Shown: positions 2,241-46,285 of the stretch, in pieces
How positions within the stretch are numbered: the first letter of the stretch is position 1
How the letters are laid out: each line of letters starts with the position of its first letter
Virus record (IMG/VR): IMGVR_UViG_3300031646_000503
Span: 1-46,285 of that record
Origin: a virus
Strand: one strand, 5' to 3'
Length of the DNA stretch: 46,285 bases
Translations under genes and position numbers: made by a program
The notes under the pieces: model-generated
The model's input: only the letters and a program-made list of their open reading frames with translations
Told to the model about the DNA's origin: nothing
Databases searched by the model: none

Positions 2241-2490
2241 CGAAATTAATTTTGTCCATCCGAGCATTTCTGATAAAGATATAGAACTGTTTGGTTTTGA
2301 TGATATTGAAAATGTTCCGATTCAGGAGCATTGGATCATGGCCCATATTATGGTTGAGGCAGGCCTATTTACTAGTATAAGCAATGCTCGCAAAAATGGT
2401 TGGAACACGCCTATACCAAAAGGCTTCTGGCAGAAAAAAGTTGGCAAGATGAGAAAGTTGATAAGTATACTAAATGAGTTGGAAGGATAG
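2233..2490 (+). CDS. Unknown protein with weak S4-like pattern
   Basis: An 85-residue protein with a GTG start that overlaps the stop of the previous gene (GTGACTAA). The segment AHIMVEAGLFTSISNARKN faintly recalls the S4 RNA-binding motif (VEAGLxxSxxxAR) seen in tyrosyl-tRNA synthetase and ribosomal S4, but the match is short and the rest is not recognisable. It lies between small membrane proteins and the HD hydrolase in one apparent operon. S4-type RNA binding is only a suggestion. Confidence 0.5.
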   Translation: MTNEINFVHPSISDKDIELFGFDDIENVPIQEHWIMAHIMVEAGLFTSISNARKNGWNTPIPKGFWQKKVGKMRKLISILNELEG

Positions 2491-2491
2491 T

Positions 2492-3046
2492 ATGCGAATT
2501 ATAGAGGTAGATCAAGAGAACGTGGTTAATAAGGCTTTGGCGTTTGCTAAAGATGCCCACGAATCCATCGGCCAGAAACGAAAGTACACTGGCGAGGATT
2601 ACATTGTCCATCCAATAGAAGTTTCACAGATTGTTAAATCGGTTGGCGGATCCGAAGCAATGCAAGCGGCCGCCCTTTTGCACGATACCGTTGAAGACAC
2701 AAATGTCACGAATGCGGAAATTGTTGAGCATTTCGGTCCTGCGATCGCTAAACTAGTAAATGAACTAACTGATATAAGTAAACTCGAAGATGGAAATCGA
2801 GCCCTTAGGAAAGAAATGGACAGAGAGCATTCTGCTAGTGCTAGTGCTGATGCACAAACGGTAAAATTGGCTGATTTGATCAGCAACAGCAAAAGCATCG
2901 TAAAACACGATCCAAATTTTGCTAAAGTTTATATTAGAGAAAAAGAGGCTCTTTTGCAGGTGCTAGATAAGGGCAATTCTCGTTTACACGCAATCGCGAC
3001 GAAACAAGTTGCAGATGCGAAAGAAACCCTAAAAATATCAGGGTAA
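2492..3046 (+). CDS. HD-domain (p)ppGpp hydrolase-like protein (MESH1/SpoT type)
   Basis: A 184-residue protein; ATG 2492 is chosen because of the GGAAGGA SD, although an ATG at 2474 is also in frame. It has the metal-binding set of RelA/SpoT hydrolase and MESH1 domains: H40, H64-D65 in ALLHDTVEDT, and D128 in VKLADLISN. The family removes the 3' pyrophosphate of (p)ppGpp. There is no synthetase, TGS or ACT domain, so it would be a stand-alone hydrolase. The phage also encodes MazG (26.2 kb), and both could lower host alarmone levels. Substrate is inferred from the motifs. Confidence 0.82.
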   Translation: MRIIEVDQENVVNKALAFAKDAHESIGQKRKYTGEDYIVHPIEVSQIVKSVGGSEAMQAAALLHDTVEDTNVTNAEIVEHFGPAIAKLVNELTDISKLEDGNRALRKEMDREHSASASADAQTVKLADLISNSKSIVKHDPNFAKVYIREKEALLQVLDKGNSRLHAIATKQVADAKETLKISG

Positions 3047-3111
3047 TCTGTTGTATTTTTGCAACAATCCAAGAAATCTTGCATTTAACCGTCAAAATAG
3101 CCCAGTTAAGG

Positions 3112-3139
3112 TTGACAGATCACCCAGATGTGTTATTAT
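3112..3139 (+). promoter_or_regulatory. Early-type sigma-70-like promoter
   Basis: TTGACA (3112-3117), 16 bases, TATTAT (3134-3139), in the intergenic gap before the AAA+ ATPase gene. Confidence 0.7.
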
Positions 3140-3194
3140 TATACTATAGTTAATGAGAACTATTTAATTCACCAACCAACCGAAAGGTAATTAT

Positions 3195-4238
3195 ATGTCC
3201 GCTCAAATGGTAAAGGTTTTTGGAGAGTATCGTAACACTCCAATTGAGGGTGTAGTTTTTCCTCTTACAAAAGGTTTCACAGAAGGCAAGAAGCATAATT
3301 TCATCACTGTTGATGGAACGCCGGTTGCTGGATTTCCCAATCGCTTTATTCGAGTCAGGGTTGCTGACAAAAACGCTTTTTCGTTTGTTGGTAAAGACGT
3401 ACCTGCTGGTACAGTAGACCCAACTCTAGTTTCAAAAGAAACCGAAGCAGAAGCAATTGAACGAATTCGTGAGCGTTTCGAAATTCTAAATGAGATGACC
3501 GAAGCAACAATGGAAGGTACCGTACGAGGTATGGTTGTAACAGGCCCTCCGGGTGTTGGTAAGTCATTTGGTGTCGAAAGTACGCTCGAGAAGCATCACA
3601 CTTTTAATAAACTTGCTGGCAAGAAGGCCAAGTATGAGGTTATTAAAGGAGCAATGACTCCGTTGGGCCTTTATGCTCTATTATTTAAGAACAGTGATCC
3701 GGGCATGGTGCTGGTACTTGATGATTGTGACACAGTTCTTTGGGACGAGTTGTCACTAAACATCCTTAAGGGTGCGTTGGATTCAGGTAAGCATCGTAGG
3801 ATTTATTGGAACGCTGATTCATCTAAATTGCGGAATGAAGGTATTCCGGATCATTTTGAGTTTAAGGGTTCGATTATCTTTATTTCAAACTTGAAGTTCG
3901 ATGCTCATATGAAGGGCAACCGGATGGGCAAAATCAAAGATCATTTAGAAGCAATTATTTCTAGGTGTCATTATTTGGATCTAACATTGGATACAATGCA
4001 AGACAAGATGCTTCGTATTCATCAGATTGTTGGTGACGGGATGCTGGATGATCATAAACTTTCCGACGACGAAGAAAAAATGATTGTTAAGTACATCGAA
4101 GATAATAAGGAAAAACTGCGCGAAGTGTCATTGCGAATGGTACTCAAAATTGCAGACTTGTTTAAAATGGCTCCTAACAATGAGAAGTGGAAGCGTCTAG
4201 CAGAAACGACTTGCATGGTTAGGAAGATTATGAGTTAA
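3195..4238 (+). CDS. AAA+ ATPase
   Basis: A 347-residue protein with Walker A GPPGVGKS (residues 117-124) and Walker B VLDDCD (174-179). A sensor-1-like asparagine follows in IIFISNLKFD, and arginines in IISRCHYLDL may be fingers. The first 110 residues are unrelated to the ATPase core. It does not resemble T4 gp44 clamp loader closely; the domain plan is that of a single AAA+ module acting on protein or nucleic acid. SD AAAGG lies upstream. It has its own promoter and a terminator immediately after, so it forms a separate transcription unit. Substrate unknown. Confidence 0.85.
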   Translation: MSAQMVKVFGEYRNTPIEGVVFPLTKGFTEGKKHNFITVDGTPVAGFPNRFIRVRVADKNAFSFVGKDVPAGTVDPTLVSKETEAEAIERIRERFEILNEMTEATMEGTVRGMVVTGPPGVGKSFGVESTLEKHHTFNKLAGKKAKYEVIKGAMTPLGLYALLFKNSDPGMVLVLDDCDTVLWDELSLNILKGALDSGKHRRIYWNADSSKLRNEGIPDHFEFKGSIIFISNLKFDAHMKGNRMGKIKDHLEAIISRCHYLDLTLDTMQDKMLRIHQIVGDGMLDDHKLSDDEEKMIVKYIEDNKEKLREVSLRMVLKIADLFKMAPNNEKWKRLAETTCMVRKIMS

Positions 4239-7668: not shown

Positions 7669-8228
7669 AATTACCTGATATTGATGTTGATTTAAAAAAT
7701 AGAGATGATGTGTTAACGGTATTAAAACATATTCCAGCAAGTATTACTGATGATAAAAAGCATAACACTGGCGTATATTTTAATAGCATACCAGTAAATC
7801 CATTGACAGGATCCTCAACTATTGATTATAAAATGGCTGAGGAGCGAGGATATTTTAAGTTAGATCTTTTGAATGTTAATCTTTATAAAGATATCAATGA
7901 TGAGAAACATTTAGATAGTTTAATGAATAAAGAACCAATGTGGGAGTTGCTTGACCATAAAGATTTTGTTGAACAGTTATTTCATATACACGCTCATTAT
8001 AAAATAGTATCTCAGTTAAAGCCACGAACAGTTGAACAATTAGCATCTGTGTTAGCAATTATAAGACCATCTAAGCGTTATTTGTTAAATGAAGAGTGGG
8101 ATACAATAAACAAGGAAGTTTGGATTGCACCAATTGACGGTGGATATTATTTCAAAAAATCTCATTCGATTGCTTATGCAGTTGCGATTGTAGTACAAAT
8201 GAATTTAATAGTGGAACAATGTAGTTAA
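7665..8228 (+). CDS. Miniature DnaE-like (DNA polymerase III alpha) protein
   Basis: A 187-residue protein that reads as a condensed bacterial Pol III alpha catalytic core. PDIDVD (residues 4-9) followed by RDDVL matches the PDxDxD motif holding two catalytic aspartates. YFKLDLLNV (D67) matches the KFDFLGL motif holding the third. QLKPRTVEQLASVLAIIRP matches the conserved block before the RPG motif, and KKSHSIAYAV (164-173) matches the NKSHAVAYA block. The PHP, OB and tau-binding domains and most of palm and fingers are absent. Full DnaE is about 1,160 residues. Whether it polymerises is unknown; a regulatory or structural role is equally possible. Confidence 0.65.
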   Translation: MKLPDIDVDLKNRDDVLTVLKHIPASITDDKKHNTGVYFNSIPVNPLTGSSTIDYKMAEERGYFKLDLLNVNLYKDINDEKHLDSLMNKEPMWELLDHKDFVEQLFHIHAHYKIVSQLKPRTVEQLASVLAIIRPSKRYLLNEEWDTINKEVWIAPIDGGYYFKKSHSIAYAVAIVVQMNLIVEQCS

Positions 8229-8605
8229 GTTTTATCTATCTTACGTACTAATTGTACTGTTCGTCTCTTAATACGTTTTCTAACTATGTTATGCAGACTT
8301 GTAATTGGCCCAAACAAAAATTCAACATCTTTACTTATATAGTTTCGTAAGCAAAAACGAAATTGTTCCATTTCGTACGGAAGGAATAAATTTATTGGCG
8401 TAATACGATTACTTTCCCACCACCAAGTATCACCTACGTGTAAGAACTTTTTCTTAAGATCGCTATCTCCAATTAAATCAAAAGAATAGATACTAGTAAT
8501 GTGAGAATTATGATTTTGTATAATGCCGATAATTTCTTTACTGGCATATTTAATACCAGTTAAGAATGGATATTTTTCGATCAATTGTTTTATGTCATCA
8601 TTCAT
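8225..8605 (-). CDS. Unknown protein on the minus strand
   Basis: A 126-residue protein convergent with the DnaE-like gene, overlapping its stop by four bases. It begins MNDDIKQLIEKYPFLTG and ends with a basic tail (KRIKRRTVQLVRKIDK). Apart from the truncated cca at the left edge, it is the only minus-strand gene in the window. No motif recognised and no clear SD. The size, an uninterrupted frame and the fit between neighbours support it being real. Confidence 0.55.
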   Translation of the reverse strand: MNDDIKQLIEKYPFLTGIKYASKEIIGIIQNHNSHITSIYSFDLIGDSDLKKKFLHVGDTWWWESNRITPINLFLPYEMEQFRFCLRNYISKDVEFLFGPITSLHNIVRKRIKRRTVQLVRKIDKT

Positions 8606-25988: not shown

Positions 25989-26231
25989 ATGAAACAGTTT
26001 GGTGTATTTTTAGTATGCCTACCTTGTATGGGTTGTGCCGCATTGCCGCCTATAGTTGAAGTAGCATCGTGGATTAAAACAGGAGCGGATGTAATCTCAT
26101 ATATTGAAACCGATAAGACAACCGCTGATCATGCATTATCGTATGTTATGAATAAAGATTGCAGTGCATTCTATCTCTTACAAGGTAAAGCAATATGTTA
26201 TAAAGAGGATAAAATATGGCCGCCAATGTAG
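25989..26231 (+). CDS. Small exported protein, possible lipoprotein
   Basis: An 80-residue protein with a hydrophobic signal-like N-terminus, MKQFGVFLVCLPCMGCAA. Cys16 follows a lipobox-like LPCMGC, so lipoprotein processing is possible. Further cysteines at 12 and 13 and near the C-terminus could form disulfides. A consensus early promoter drives it together with MazG, the SET protein and the Sm-like protein, whose genes overlap or abut. Envelope function unknown. Confidence 0.6.
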   Translation: MKQFGVFLVCLPCMGCAALPPIVEVASWIKTGADVISYIETDKTTADHALSYVMNKDCSAFYLLQGKAICYKEDKIWPPM

Positions 26232-26617
26232 ACTTAAATAAGTATCAAGATTTTGTAGAAGCAGTAACTTCGGTTGAGAGCAATGAATTAGCACTAATGG
26301 TGCAACGAATGTCTGATTTAGAAAAAGAAGGCATTAACATGGCATTACTGTTAACAGGGGCAATTGGATTATCAAGCGAGGGAGGCGAGGTTAGTGAGAT
26401 CGTTAAGAAGTGTATTTTTCAAGGCAAGCCTATGGATGTATTTCATCTTAAACGCGAATTGGGCGATATTATGTGGTATTGGATTAGCAGTTGCAGGGCT
26501 CTTAATTTGGACCCAAATGAAGTAGTTGCAGAGAATGTAAAGAAATTACAAGAACGATATCCCGACGGTAAGTTTGATGTTTGGCATAGCGAAAATCGCA
26601 AGGAAGGCGATTTATAA
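26216..26617 (+). CDS. mazG: MazG-like nucleoside triphosphate pyrophosphohydrolase
   Basis: A 133-residue protein with the MazG/all-alpha NTP-PPase metal site: SSEGGEVSEIVKK (E55, E58, E61) and RELGDIMWYW (E81, D84). A GAGG SD precedes ATG 26216, which overlaps the previous gene by 16 bases. Phage MazG proteins hydrolyse (d)NTPs and have been proposed to influence (p)ppGpp levels. It pairs conceptually with the HD hydrolase at 2492. Confidence 0.85.
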   Translation: MAANVDLNKYQDFVEAVTSVESNELALMVQRMSDLEKEGINMALLLTGAIGLSSEGGEVSEIVKKCIFQGKPMDVFHLKRELGDIMWYWISSCRALNLDPNEVVAENVKKLQERYPDGKFDVWHSENRKEGDL

Positions 26618-26937
26618 TGTATAGACCATTGCCAGACGGATTAACTATTAAAGATAGCGGTATAGATGGTTTAGGCGTAGTAGCAACAAAGGAGTTTAAA
26701 TCAGATACTGTATTAGGAATTGTGCATATCGCAAATAAAAATTTTCCACATGGGTATATAAGAACAGCATTGGGTGCTTTTTATAATCATTCAGATGAAC
26801 CCAATTGTGTTGTATTCAATGGATTCTGGCACCAAATAAAAGTTAAATATTTAGTAACACAAAATAACATTAACATAGGTGATGAATTAACAGCAAAATA
26901 TTCATTGTATACAGTTGATGATGATTCATGGGAGTAA
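26617..26937 (+). CDS. SET-domain protein (putative protein lysine methyltransferase)
   Basis: A 106-residue protein reduced to the core SET motifs: SGIDGLGVVAT (14-24), the SAM-binding FYNHSDEPNC (55-64), and INIGDELTAKYS (85-96) with the closing tyrosine Y95. These match the GxG, NHS and GDE-Y signatures. No pre-SET or post-SET cysteines are present. SET enzymes methylate lysines on proteins. In a phage, targets could be ribosomal proteins, elongation factors or virion proteins; unknown here. Overlaps MazG by one base. Confidence 0.75.
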   Translation: MYRPLPDGLTIKDSGIDGLGVVATKEFKSDTVLGIVHIANKNFPHGYIRTALGAFYNHSDEPNCVVFNGFWHQIKVKYLVTQNNINIGDELTAKYSLYTVDDDSWE

Positions 26938-33147: not shown

Positions 33148-33234
33148 TGGACGATGGACCGAGTAGATGTTATAATTTTTATAATCTTGCTTAGGCAAGA
33201 CGGTTTTCTATGACTCGACAACTAGGAGAAAAAT

Positions 33235-33522
33235 ATGTGCCCAGCATGTTATATTAATGGACTATTATTTTTGATTTTTGGCGCCAGTGGTGCTACAATG
33301 GCAAGTAATCCTTGGATAATTGCTATTAGCGTAGTACTTACTATTGCTGGTTTTTGGTGGATGTGGAAAGCATATAAACGTAACAAAGGAACAGGTGGTT
33401 GGAAAAAGAATTTAAAAACCTCGTTGTTGTTTTTACTTGTGTTTGCGGCAGGATATGGAACTGCGGCATATCAGACACATGAGTATTTTGAACACAAATA
33501 TGCTGAACACAACCATGATTAA
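33235..33522 (+). CDS. Small membrane protein with CxxC start
   Basis: A 95-residue protein with an AGGAG SD. Two or three membrane helices are visible (about residues 8-24, 27-46 and 63-78). It opens MCPACYINGLL, where C2-x2-C5 at the membrane edge resembles metal- or redox-active CxxC sites, and ends in a His-rich tail (HEYFEHKYAEHNHD). Metal binding or an envelope role is a guess. The bases 33148-33234 before it contain no convincing gene. Confidence 0.6.
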   Translation: MCPACYINGLLFLIFGASGATMASNPWIIAISVVLTIAGFWWMWKAYKRNKGTGGWKKNLKTSLLFLLVFAAGYGTAAYQTHEYFEHKYAEHNHD

Positions 33523-33550
33523 GTTGAATAATAAAATGAAAGTGTGATTA

Positions 33551-33766
33551 ATGCCGAATAGACTATTATGTGATGTTCTTGGTGAGATGCGAGAATGTGT
33601 TAAGACCTCAAACTTCTCTTATTTGCTAGGATTAATTGAAGAAGCGCAATCTCTTGGTAATCGAATGGAATCGAAGTTGTACGATATGAAAGAGCATGAT
33701 CGTCTTCTTGATGACATTCGAGATTTAAAGAAGAAGAAGAAGTTAACAGAGAACAATATGACTTGA
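33551..33766 (+). CDS. Small coiled-coil protein
   Basis: A 71-residue protein, helical throughout, with a coiled-coil-like C-terminal half (SKLYDMKEHDRLLDDIRDL) ending in KKKKK. No strong SD. It directly precedes the tmRNA gene. I have a loose memory of similar short proteins in marine T4-like phages; function unknown. Confidence 0.5.
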   Translation: MPNRLLCDVLGEMRECVKTSNFSYLLGLIEEAQSLGNRMESKLYDMKEHDRLLDDIRDLKKKKKLTENNMT

Positions 33767-33785
33767 CAACCAACCTTCTTTATGC

Positions 33786-33793
33786 TATAAATA
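33786..33793 (+). promoter_or_regulatory. T4-type late promoter for the tmRNA
   Basis: A perfect TATAAATA upstream of the acceptor piece; the expected start is about 33799. A TTGACA at 33773 is too close to act as its -35 box. Confidence 0.65.
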
Positions 33794-33798
33794 TACTT

Positions 33799-34118
33799 GC
33801 AACGTTGAAGCAATTCGAAAGTTGGACAGGACGCGGGTTCGAAACCCGCCACCTCCACCATAATAACATTGTGAACGCAATCGCGTCAGTAAGTCTATAA
33901 AGGATCGCAACCTTGAGCAACAGTGTTATTATAATGGGGGTGAATTGGGGTCGACTGACAGTTAATAGGAGCGTGGAGTTGTCCGGATGTAAGCTCGGTT
34001 AACGCGAACAAACTTTATAAATGCAAACGATAACGCATTTGATTTGCCACTAGCCGCTTAAGGTTTAGTGCGGGGTTTAATAGGCAGGTGCACCTGGCAA
34101 CATAAGCACCTGCCACCT
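33799..34118 (+). ncRNA. ssrA: Circularly permuted two-piece tmRNA (alphaproteobacterial type)
   Basis: The 3' part comes first: a T-arm GCGGG-TTCGAAA-CCCGC, then CACCTCC-A-CCA ending at 33860. A 75-base intervening segment follows, whose ends TAATAACA (33861-33868) and TGTTATTA pair. The 5' part starts at 33936 with GGGGGTG, which pairs with CACCTCC (33850-33856) to form the seven-pair acceptor stem. TTGTCC in the 5' part can pair with GGACAG before the T-arm. The tag frame runs 34023-34061, GCA resume codon to TAA, encoding ANDNAFDLPLAA. A 9-pair hairpin at 34083-34114 follows. Such permuted genes are known from alphaproteobacteria, some cyanobacteria and some betaproteobacteria; an ANDN start to the tag is alphaproteobacterial. 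It rescues stalled ribosomes. The outer ends are approximate. Confidence 0.92.
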
Positions 34119-34193
34119 GCGGCTATCGTATAAGGGTTATTACAAAACGTTGCCAACGTTTGAATCGCAGTTCGAATCTGCGTAGCCGCTCCA
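34119..34193 (+). tRNA. tRNA-Gly (GCC)
   Basis: Cloverleaf with acceptor GCGGCTA/TAGCCGC, anticodon arm AAACG-TTGCCAA-CGTTT (anticodon GCC), T-arm CGCAG-TTCGAAT-CTGCG, and T-CCA encoded. It starts five bases after the tmRNA's terminal hairpin, so both are probably processed from one transcript. Confidence 0.92.
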
Positions 34194-34196
34194 GGA

Positions 34197-34272
34197 GGTC
34201 CCTTAGTGTAGCGGTTAACACGCCTGCCTGTCACGCAGGAGATCAGGGGTTCAAATCCCCTAGGGACCGCCA
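34197..34272 (+). tRNA. tRNA-Asp (GTC)
   Basis: Acceptor GGTCCCT/AGGGACC, anticodon arm CCTGC-CTGTCAC-GCAGG (anticodon GTC), T-arm AGGGG-TTCAAAT-CCCCT, discriminator G and encoded CCA. It lies three bases after tRNA-Gly. Confidence 0.95.
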
Positions 34273-34273
34273 T

Positions 34274-34280
34274 ATAAATA
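34274..34280 (+). promoter_or_regulatory. T4-type late promoter, leaderless arrangement
   Basis: ATAAATA two bases after tRNA-Asp, then exactly five bases to ATG 34286. No SD. Confidence 0.75.
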
Positions 34281-34285
34281 TATGT

Positions 34286-34675
34286 ATGAAGTTGTCAATT
34301 ACACATATTGCTTTACATGTTGAAGACTTAGATACTTGTATAGAATTTTATCAAGAATTTTGTGAACTAGAAATAGTACACAAAAGAGAAAGTGCCGCTT
34401 GGCTAACTAATGAAGAATTAAAAAATAAGTTTGTTATAGTGCTTATAAAAGGCGGGAAGAGAGGTAAGCAAAAGTTTAAAAAAGATTTTTCGCATATTGG
34501 TATAGCAGTTGATTCACTAGAAGACCTTTTTAGAAAAGTTAAAGAAGGTAAAAAATTAGGCTGTTATGCATTTGGACCATTTAAAGAGGACTATCCAACA
34601 GGACATATTGCTGGATTTCTCGATCCGAACGGTAATTTAGTTGAATTATCCTATGACCAGCCCATAGGACTATAA
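34286..34675 (+). CDS. VOC-family (glyoxalase/bleomycin-resistance-like) protein
   Basis: A 129-residue protein from ATG 34286, exactly at the predicted late transcription start; upstream in-frame ATGs fall in the tRNAs. It has two beta-alpha-beta-beta-beta units: THIALHVEDLDTCIEFYQEF with metal ligand H7, and FSHIGIAVDSLEDLF, with LDPNGNLVELSYD providing the glutamate. These are lactoylglutathione-lyase-like signatures. Possible roles are methylglyoxal detoxification or resistance to a small molecule; substrate unknown. Confidence 0.8.
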   Translation: MKLSITHIALHVEDLDTCIEFYQEFCELEIVHKRESAAWLTNEELKNKFVIVLIKGGKRGKQKFKKDFSHIGIAVDSLEDLFRKVKEGKKLGCYAFGPFKEDYPTGHIAGFLDPNGNLVELSYDQPIGL

Positions 34676-38575: not shown

Positions 38576-39622
38576 ATGAGACTAATAACGCAAGAAGTTA
38601 TAGAAACCGATATAGTAATAATTGGAGCAGGCCCAGTCGGCCTGTTCGCTGTCTTTGAAGCAGGCCTATTAGATTTAGAATGCCATTTAATTGATAGTTT
38701 AGATAAGATTGGCGGACAATGCATTGAGTTGTATCCTGATAAACCAATATATGATATTCCAGGTGTTCCTAATCAAACCGCCAGAGAACACGTTGATTCA
38801 TTATTAAAACAAATTAAACCTTTTAATCCTACATTCCATTTAAACGAGACTGTTATAACCTTGTGGCAAGACAGGTCTGAAGGTGGAATACGGGATAGCA
38901 AATTTACTTTAAAGACAAATGGTAACAAAACGTTTATAACGTCCAATGTAATTATTGCAGGCGGCGCCGGAACGTTTAAACCCAAGAAGCCAGACATTGA
39001 AGGATTAGAAGCATTTGAAGGTAAGGGATTAGAATATGCTGTTAGAGATAAATCAAAATACTTTAATAAGCGTGTCTTAATATTTGGCGGCGGCGATAGT
39101 GCATTAGATTGGACAGTAGAGTTAGCAAACATTGCTACAGAGGTTACATTAATACATAGAAGTAAACGTTACAAGGCCTCACCGCATACTGTGAAACAGA
39201 TGCGAGCAAAACCAAATGTTAAGGAAGTTACTGGAAAATTAGAACGGTTAGAAGATTCAAAACGTTATTTAGATTATGCAATTGTTACAGTAGATAAAGA
39301 ACCAAAGATTCTGCCTTGCGATGAAGTTTTAATCTTTTTTGGATTGAATACTAATCTAGATGAAATACGATCGTGGAGATTGGAATTAGATGATTTCAAG
39401 AGAAAAATAAAAGTTAATACAAAAACGTTTGAAACTAACATGAAAGGAGTATTTGCTATCGGAGATATGTGTTATTATCCAGGTAAGTTGAATCTTATAT
39501 TGTCAGGATTCCATGAAGGAACGTTAGCAGTACAAGAAGCATTTTATAGGGCCCGGCCCGGAGAGGAATTAATATTTCAATATACTACTACAAGTAGTAG
39601 TTTAAAGAAGAAATTGGCTTGA
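38576..39622 (+). CDS. Ferredoxin/flavodoxin-NADP+ reductase, thioredoxin-reductase-like type
   Basis: A 348-residue flavoprotein. FAD is bound by VIIGAGPVGLF (14-24) and AIGDMCYYPGKLNLI near the C-terminus; NADPH by LIFGGGDSALDW (about 167-178). IDSLDKIGGQCIELYPDK is characteristic of the TrxR-like FNR family (YumC type), which lacks the CxxC of thioredoxin reductase. It moves electrons between NADPH and ferredoxin or flavodoxin. A late promoter sits at its start. It is adjacent to the amino-acid dehydrogenase, though that gene has its own early promoter. Confidence 0.9.
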   Translation: MRLITQEVIETDIVIIGAGPVGLFAVFEAGLLDLECHLIDSLDKIGGQCIELYPDKPIYDIPGVPNQTAREHVDSLLKQIKPFNPTFHLNETVITLWQDRSEGGIRDSKFTLKTNGNKTFITSNVIIAGGAGTFKPKKPDIEGLEAFEGKGLEYAVRDKSKYFNKRVLIFGGGDSALDWTVELANIATEVTLIHRSKRYKASPHTVKQMRAKPNVKEVTGKLERLEDSKRYLDYAIVTVDKEPKILPCDEVLIFFGLNTNLDEIRSWRLELDDFKRKIKVNTKTFETNMKGVFAIGDMCYYPGKLNLILSGFHEGTLAVQEAFYRARPGEELIFQYTTTSSSLKKKLA

Positions 39623-39653: not shown

Positions 39654-40724
39654 ATGGCTTTAGAAATTGAAGAACTAAAAATACCATATTGTGAACGGGT
39701 AGTTCATGGTAGAGATAAAACAACTGGTTTAGATGGTTTTATTTGTGTTTATTCAACAAAACTTGGACCAGCATTAGGTGGCATTCGGGCCTGGAAATAT
39801 CAGAGATCGTATGCCGCACGGAAAGATTGTATTTTACTTGCTAAGGCAATGACATATAAAAACAGTTTAGCAGGTATTGAATATGGTGGTGGTAAGGGAG
39901 TTATAAATCTTAAAGGTGTTAATAAAACAAAAGACTTATTAAAAAGTTTTGGAGAGCTAGTTCAATTTTTAGATGGTGATTTTATTGCCGGTAAGGATGT
40001 AGGAATTAGCATTCATGATTTGCGTGTAATAGCGCAAACATCTGAACATGTTGCACATGTAAATCCAGACATACACAGTGTTGATCCATCACCCCCAACG
40101 GCGTTAGGTATTATTAGAGGCATGGAAGCAAGCATTAATACTTTGCGCGGAGGTATGGCCCCGGGTAGAAATTTAGAAGGATTGCATATTGTTATACAAG
40201 GATTAGGCGCAGTTGGATATCGTCTTGCGTCAATGCTTAAGAAAAAGAAAGTACAGTTAACAGTAACCGATACAAATAAAGAAGTATTAGCAAAAGCCGT
40301 TACCAGATTTGGTGCAAAAGCAGTAAAGCAACCAAATAAAATTTATGATGTTGAATGTGATATTTTTGCTCCGTGTGCGTTAGGATCAATTATAAATGAA
40401 GATACTATTGAGCGATTTAAATGTAAAATTATTTGCGGTTCTGCTAATAACCAGTTAGAAGATAAATTGGCAGGGTATGCAATGCTAGTTAAGGATATTT
40501 TATATGCTCCAGATTATCTTGTTAATGCTGGTGGCGTAACTAATAGTGCCGCCGAACTATCAGATTCATATGATGAGTTTGAAGTTGCATCATCGATAGA
40601 TTATATCTATGATCGATTAACTCAAGTATACGAAATTAGTCATAAGGAACATTTACCGACTAATATGGTAGCCGCAAGGTTAGCAGAGGAACGATTAGAT
40701 AAGGGTAAAATAAATGGTAAATAA
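39654..40724 (+). CDS. Leucine/valine/glutamate-type amino-acid dehydrogenase
   Basis: A 356-residue Glu/Leu/Phe/Val dehydrogenase. The glycine-rich substrate loop and catalytic lysine are in LGPALGGIR and IEYGGGKGVINLK (about residue 78). The second lysine-aspartate pair lies in GKDVGISIHDL, and the NAD-binding GxGxxG in IVIQGLGAVGYRL (about 178-190). The length and LGGIR/GGGKG blocks fit leucine dehydrogenase better than glutamate dehydrogenase (about 450). It deaminates branched-chain amino acids to 2-oxo acids, releasing ammonia and NADH, or runs in reverse. Confidence 0.9.
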   Translation: MALEIEELKIPYCERVVHGRDKTTGLDGFICVYSTKLGPALGGIRAWKYQRSYAARKDCILLAKAMTYKNSLAGIEYGGGKGVINLKGVNKTKDLLKSFGELVQFLDGDFIAGKDVGISIHDLRVIAQTSEHVAHVNPDIHSVDPSPPTALGIIRGMEASINTLRGGMAPGRNLEGLHIVIQGLGAVGYRLASMLKKKKVQLTVTDTNKEVLAKAVTRFGAKAVKQPNKIYDVECDIFAPCALGSIINEDTIERFKCKIICGSANNQLEDKLAGYAMLVKDILYAPDYLVNAGGVTNSAAELSDSYDEFEVASSIDYIYDRLTQVYEISHKEHLPTNMVAARLAEERLDKGKINGK

Positions 40725-45922: not shown

Positions 45923-46285
45923 ATGTATGAATATACAGCCACGTTAAATAGAATTATCGATGGAGACACCATTGATGTTAATATTGATCTCGGGTTTGGT
46001 ATTCAAATTAAACAACGAGTGCGGTTGCATGGAATTAATACTCCTGAAGTTCGTACGTTAGATTTAGAAGAGAAAAAATTAGGTAATGCCGCAAAAGATA
46101 GATTAAAAGAATTATTGCCAAAAGAATTTATGATTAAGACAATTTTAAATAAACGAGGAAAATATGGCAGGATTTTAGGCATTATAATGATTCCATCAGC
46201 GAAGATGTCTGATGGTTACGTAAATATAAATGAACAATTGGTTACTGAGGGACATGCAGAAAGATATAAAACAACACCTAGATAA
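45923..46285 (+). CDS. Staphylococcal-nuclease-like (SNase) protein
   Basis: A 120-residue protein from ATG 45923 (TTG 45917 is also in frame; SD weak). NRIIDGDTIDVNIDLGFG and RVRLHGINTPEVRT match the SNase OB-fold core with the calcium-binding aspartates and catalytic arginine. KLGNAAKDRLKELL and RGKYGRILGII supply the second arginine region. It is shorter than staphylococcal nuclease (149) and has no signal peptide, so it would act in the cytoplasm on DNA or RNA. The stop codon is at the last base of the window. Confidence 0.85.
   Translation: MYEYTATLNRIIDGDTIDVNIDLGFGIQIKQRVRLHGINTPEVRTLDLEEKKLGNAAKDRLKELLPKEFMIKTILNKRGKYGRILGIIMIPSAKMSDGYVNINEQLVTEGHAERYKTTPR

Follow-up and report, generated by a model that had tools for sequence, protein, structure and literature searches.

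We identified a phage-encoded, permuted two-piece tmRNA in the window, a 46,285-nt phage fragment (IMG/VR record IMGVR_UViG_3300031646_000503). This alpha-type tmRNA is very probably a working one, belonging to a phage group in which the spacer between the two tmRNA pieces also houses protein genes and descending from an ancestor with such a nested gene. The window's own tmRNA adds one member to a published set, and what appears to be new is the gene-hosting spacer of its relatives. The window, whose own spacer has no gene, appears to carry the footprint of a gene-hosting spacer in the form of a scar.

Structure, promoter and setting of the window tmRNA

The Rfam covariance model tmRNA_permuted (RF04321) matched positions 33799-34061 with 116.2 bits (E 4e-22; gathering score 47). 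The alpha_tmRNA model (RF01849), which the initial annotation had proposed as a check, matched 33759-34114 with 93.4 bits (E 2.9e-24; cut-off 50). It was the top match in its Rfam clan and covered model positions 1-355, the full length with the 3′ domain included, which bears out the assignment to the alphaproteobacterial type. Because this score is below that of the general permuted model, we regard the window tmRNA as a diverged alpha-type member; several of its P2 pairs deviate from the RF01849 model. Independently, ARAGORN reported a permuted tmRNA with the tag ANDNAFDLPLAA*. Direct reading agreed with these searches, and all coordinates of the initial annotation were right (Table 1).

The acceptor piece lies upstream of the coding piece with a self-closing spacer between them, the order expected of a permuted two-piece tmRNA. 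The seven-pair acceptor stem GGGGGTG/CACCTCC, as originally described, contains a G3:U70 wobble, which is typical of alanine tRNA and tmRNA, and is accompanied by a T-arm and a CCA end. The intervening segment indeed closes with its own stem, of 12 pairs (TAATAACATTG / CAGTGTTATTA). The tag frame begins with an alanine resume codon and ends in a hydrophobic AA followed by a stop, and its annotated LAA-TAA ending was read correctly. In the coding piece, four bases separate the end of the 3′ hairpin from tRNA-Gly (34119), whose RNase P site may set the 3′ end of the tmRNA. An equivalent hairpin with a different stem sequence was present in L002, L003 and L004. No terminator-like site was found within 33200-34400 of the window.

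Table 1. Features of the tmRNA region, in positions of the window
Feature	Position	Strand	Basis
Scar TATGACTCGACAAC, 13/14 match to tmRNA promoter start	33209..33222	+	Lies where L022 has promoter and acceptor piece
Gene M, small membrane protein, 95 aa, upstream of tmRNA; L022 ortholog inside spacer	33235..33522	+	
71-aa ORF between M and tmRNA; end overlaps -35 element; absent from L022	33551..33766	+	
Promoter: TTGACA 33763-33768, 17-nt spacer, TATAAA 33786-33791; octamer TATAAATA 33786-33793	33763..33793	+	
tmRNA acceptor piece, 5′ P2 strand at its start	33799..33860	+	5′ end placed from model start and promoter distance
T-arm GCGGG/CCCGC	33833-33849	+	Direct reading
Acceptor 3′ strand CACCTCC	33850-33856	+	Direct reading
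Encoded ACCA	33857-33860	+	Direct reading
Intervening spacer, 75 nt, no ORF of note; predicted to be removed on processing	33861..33935	+	
tmRNA coding piece: D-like region GGGGTCGAC, P2 strand, tag frame, 3′ hairpin	33936..34118	+	3′ end predicted
Coding-piece 5′ acceptor strand GGGGGTG	33936-33942	+	Direct reading
Tag frame GCA...GCT TAA, ANDNAFDLPLAA plus TAA	34023..34061	+	ARAGORN, direct reading
Coding-piece 3′ hairpin GGCAGGTGC / GCACCTGCC around ACCTGGCAACATAA	34083..34114	+	Direct reading
tRNA-Gly(GCC), directly downstream of tmRNA	34119..34193	+	ARAGORN
tRNA-Asp(GTC)	34197..34272	+	Rfam, ARAGORN

The initial annotation had placed the gene behind a late promoter. The -10 region does spell the T4-type late octamer TATAAATA, but such promoters lack a -35 element, and here a perfect TTGACA stands at a distance of 17 nt and is conserved in relatives; a late-only promoter was rejected on these grounds. 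On its own, the octamer was no commoner in the window than expected by chance (6 vs 9.6); perfect TTGACA-N17-TATAAA pairs occurred four times on the + strand, with 0.12 expected. Upstream sequence was sufficient for 90 distinct tmRNAs; 37 of these had at least 11 of the 12 sigma-70 consensus positions, compared with 0 in shuffled sequence, and TATAAATA served as the -10 octamer in 41 of the 51 tmRNAs with a TTGAC-type -35 element. The unit conserved across relatives is TTGAC-N16..18-TATAAATA, and L022, L117, phage Melnitz (L254) and most other relatives had the promoter layout of the window. Judged by its sequence, the window promoter is of the sigma-70, host type. Since the octamer doubles as the T4 late consensus, dual early-plus-late use is possible. 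For the Melnitz tmRNA, too, an early promoter is reported (PMC9004378).

That the tmRNA is phage-encoded, as first proposed, is supported by the virus record and by T4-type replication genes. The window codes for a UvsW-type helicase, a DnaB-type helicase, a primase and ten tRNAs. The nearest isolates for the UvsW-like helicase were jumbo phages, namely Sinorhizobium phage Phosso (469 kb), Agrobacterium phage Atu_ph07, PA5oct-like phages and slurp01, and only one of four such genomes searched, that of Phosso, contained a permuted tmRNA (113 bits). A blastn search of the window tmRNA against 50,697 phage records gave no match, and a search for related loci with the 951-aa protein of the window returned no relatives.

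Other genes in the window included a CCA-adding enzyme running off the left end (1-1155, - strand; PolyA_pol head domain, E 6e-35), which may allow the phage to complete tRNA ends, both its own and those of the host. Genes for an HD_4-domain protein (2474-3046), a MazG-like protein (26216-26617), a glyoxalase-like protein (34286-34675), a flavin oxidoreductase (38576-39622) and a Glu/Leu dehydrogenase (39654-40724) are candidate auxiliary or stress-response genes. In addition, a small SET-domain protein is encoded at 26617-26937 (E 2e-9).

Gene M in a related spacer and the scar in the window

L022, a viral contig with roughly 89% identity to the window across extended regions, has the same tag. 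Between its acceptor piece (about 8055-8156) and its coding piece (from 8479) lie 322 nt, and this spacer houses a gene for a 96-aa membrane protein, M (8177-8467), which has a ribosome-binding site of its own, AGGAG. The window and L022 versions of M share 91% aa identity (dN 0.05, dS 0.19), and spacer-borne M is evidently under purifying selection. No match to M was found by tblastn in phage isolates.

A single covariance match (96.4 bits) covered both L022 halves. Both strands of the acceptor stem differ between the window (GGGGGTG/CACCTCC) and L022 (GGGGATG/CATCTCC), with the compensatory replacement of G5-C68 in the window by A5-U68 in L022 across the 322-nt spacer, and the T-stem also differs on both sides; the L022 halves thus still pair across gene M. 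Three contigs from three other samples (L069-L071) have the same junction of acceptor, ribosome-binding site and M, with a diverged acceptor, which speaks against L022 being chimeric. One close relative thus shows the nested arrangement of M intact, and these three contigs, which end inside M, show it in part.

The scar lies at the point where L022 has its promoter and acceptor piece, and on the + strand of the window the promoter start is matched at 13/14 positions in just one further place, the real tmRNA promoter at 33757. The scar is joined directly to TAGGAGAAAAATATG of M, its ribosome-binding site. Aligned to L022, the window is missing exactly 98 nt, from mid-promoter to the end of the first strand of the spacer. 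Because a 14-nt promoter remnant abuts the ribosome-binding site of M, the ancestral order was probably the nested one: promoter, acceptor, M and coding piece. The window lineage would have shed this original block and acquired, downstream of M, a new promoter-acceptor-spacer block together with the 71-aa ORF. The direction could also have been the reverse: the compact form of the window and L031 would then be ancestral, with promoter and acceptor relocated to a position ahead of M in the L022 lineage. Spacers are short and gene-free in the majority of relatives, M precedes a tmRNA with a short spacer in L031, and a microhomology-driven insertion is conceivable. However, deletion in the window lineage more readily accounts for a promoter remnant (13/14) at precisely the place of the L022 insertion, and the acceptor-M junction is common to three other contigs, so we consider the reverse direction rather unlikely and prefer a nested ancestor.

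Protein genes in the spacers of viral tmRNAs

We surveyed 104 distinct permuted tmRNAs in viral loci, for which acceptors were picked without reference to the coding piece; several of these loci contained T4-type phage genes (gp32-like protein, PhoH, exonuclease). Acceptor pairs 5-68 and 6-67 were formed in 208 of 208 cases. For the first 93 tmRNAs, 186 of 186 pairs were formed against a shuffle mean of 118, and the long-spacer group had 36 of 36, a value that no shuffle out of 5,000 attained. In 32 of the 104 tmRNAs the spacer was 95 nt or longer, and a sense ORF covered at least 70% of the spacer in 25 of these 32, a count that is not a frequency because some scans favoured ORF-bearing long-spacer cases.

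Proteins encoded in spacers included HNH homing endonucleases in L084/L161 and L086 (PHROG 655, E 7e-14 and 4e-14). The HNH spacers were 495-520 nt long, with the coding piece at 8117 (L084), 743 (L161) and 877 on the minus strand (L086); the covariance match in L086 does not extend across the spacer, and that case is based on stem pairing and sequence inspection. Membrane or small proteins were found in L117, L120, L130 and L125, and a small transmembrane family in L095, L127 and L160. Two further families were represented by two loci each (L076/L079 and L248/L172), with dN/dS below 1. The second spacer ORF of L117 is 53% identical to a free-standing homolog in Melnitz.

Melnitz itself (MZ577097) has a 142-nt tmRNA spacer with a ribosome-binding site and an open frame, MFKWLSKTRLVVITRDYFRERNRKADAKIPKYLSGTRSVYD, of 41 codons (46096-46218), which is unannotated and lies wholly under the annotated SsrA feature; the available part of the Melnitz report (PMC9004378) does not mention it. 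This frame resembles the first spacer ORF of L117 in 'KIPKYLSGxR' and reaches the predicted RNase P site without meeting a stop. In Phosso (L020; PV764938, 349596-350198), a permuted tmRNA with the tag ANDNVSTKVALAA was detected where no RNA feature is annotated; its 410-nt spacer has no convincing ORF and, judged by eye, seems to form two separate hairpins.

It is highly improbable that the spacer ORFs are chance reading frames rather than genes. A few are short (31-45 codons), some are individually within chance expectation, and 7 of the 32 long spacers (95 nt or more), Phosso's among them, lack such an ORF. Nevertheless, in an earlier subset of 28 long spacers the sense ORF was longer than the antisense ORF in 22 of 27 untied cases (p=0.0015), and 13 of the 28 ORFs exceeded simulation at p<=0.01. 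M has homologs outside spacers, the HNH proteins match homing-endonuclease families, homologous spacer ORFs have dN/dS below 1, and ribosome-binding sites are rightly placed.

The survey also revealed other features of these loci. A glutamine riboswitch (L136, 2150-2198) lies upstream of a permuted tmRNA with a 45-aa spacer ORF, recalling the reported riboswitch-tmRNA pairing in Melnitz. Unusually long tags of about 29 residues (e.g., ANDNALNNVTFVNFGKQKSVVNEDFALAA) were seen in L191, L192, L199, L202, L206 and L212, and a doubled-start tag, ANDNIANDNYSEYRLAA, in L031 and L165. In Roseobacter phage DSS3P8 (L250), a GOLLD RNA was located directly 5′ of an unannotated permuted tmRNA (2345-2778 and 2949-3335).

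Processing, function and relation to known systems

From the sigma-70 type promoter, one transcript starting near 33799 would contain the acceptor piece, the spacer, the coding piece and then probably tRNA-Gly and tRNA-Asp. RNase P would cut before 33936 and before 34119, and an RNase Z/E-type cleavage would follow 3′ of the encoded CCA, such that tRNA-processing enzymes excise the spacer while the acceptor stem and P2 keep both pieces paired. Host alanyl-tRNA synthetase, EF-Tu and host SmpB would then use the RNA, stalled ribosomes being rescued and ANDNAFDLPLAA appended. SmpB (PF01668) was detected neither in the window fragment nor in the complete 469-kb genome of Phosso nor in ten related viral contigs; thus neither the window fragment nor Phosso has a trans-translation set of its own (tmRNA plus SmpB), although in the phage of the window SmpB could be encoded beyond this fragment. 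The phage tmRNA probably uses host SmpB. Rescue or tagging during infection is plausible.

In gene-bearing forms, the excised spacer could serve as mRNA; we infer expression of spacer genes, and any regulation by it, from the sequences. The ribosome-binding site of the spacer ORF is often in or beside the closing stem (e.g., L248, AAAGGAGATTTA / TAAATCTCTTTTT), and the ORF often ends in a UGA placed a single base ahead of the predicted RNase P cut (L086, L125, L160, L136, L095, L127 and L138). These positions suggest a coupling. Where the UGA precedes the cut by 1 nt, or is missing before it as in Melnitz, a processed passenger message would end at a stop or without one. The comparison gave no support to selection for spacer ORFs that lack a stop: in the homologous pairs L076/L079 and L248/L172, one member has a pre-cut stop and the other does not. 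By analogy with ArfA, the spacer might be a protected gene slot whose processed message, with a stop at its end or none, is tagged by the released tmRNA in a feedback loop, an extension that we hold to be distinctly unlikely.

Two other functional readings were weighed against a working tmRNA. A role as a decoy or inhibitor, competing with host tmRNA in trans-translation rather than tagging, has a precedent in the coding-less tmRNA of mycobacteriophage DS6A, which inhibits endogenous tmRNA (cited in PMC11915505). However, the DS6A RNA has no tag frame, whereas the window tmRNA retains an intact tag frame, stop and LAA end, and L022 has an identical tag although other parts of its RNA differ; a decoy is very unlikely. 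The gene might also be a functionless captured host fragment or the remnant of a prophage attachment site, given that tmRNA genes are common integration sites (PMC11915505), but the complete promoter, both pieces, the compensatory changes, the conservation in L022 and the position within a phage tRNA cluster make this extremely improbable, as does the absence of the tag from all 84,980 bacterial and archaeal species genomes searched. The only other viral contig with the tag pattern was L022. A working tmRNA therefore remains the preferred reading.

In searches aimed at the host, neither the tag nor a pseudoknot-region signature matched any bacterial genome. The earlier suggestion that the gene points to the host lineage stands only as a hint and not as proof, since Melnitz, a cultured phage of OM43 (Gammaproteobacteria), has an alpha-type permuted tmRNA (PMC9004378).

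Permuted tmRNAs of phages are already known: 53 unique two-piece forms were reported among 133 phage tmRNA structures in PMC9004378, and a 2025 database lists 79 phage tmRNAs of all forms (PMC11915505). As unusual spacers of permuted tmRNAs, the latter singles out only a tRNA-Ala and a repeat element, and within the limited literature searched we found no report of a protein gene in a tmRNA spacer. The Melnitz two-piece tmRNA resembles that of the window in being permuted and alpha-type with a TTGACA-N17-TATAAATA promoter (PMC9004378); the window differs in phage, in its new tag and in the tRNA cluster downstream of the tmRNA. The RF04321 and RF01849 families match the window in piece order, tRNA-like domain, spacer and tag, but protein genes in the spacer, as in the window's relatives, are unreported for them (PMC11915505). 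Group I intron tmRNA (PMC11915505) likewise has a protein gene, at times a homing endonuclease, inside the tmRNA gene. There, however, the gene is in a self-splicing T-loop intron and the exons are joined, whereas here it is in the spacer and the pieces are never re-ligated. The Coxiella 23S rRNA intervening sequence with its S23p ORF also places an ORF in a segment cut from a stable RNA precursor, but it concerns rRNA, other processing enzymes and a selfish element rather than tmRNA and varied passenger genes (PMC4990558).

The presence of protein genes, homing endonucleases included, between tmRNA halves implies that the spacer tolerates cargo and may express it, and that a single transcript can be mRNA and two-piece tmRNA together. 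Such gene-hosting tmRNAs escape a standard finder: ARAGORN missed that of L022, and also that of Phosso. In addition, the scar in the window points to a concrete route by which permuted genes may gain and lose passengers.
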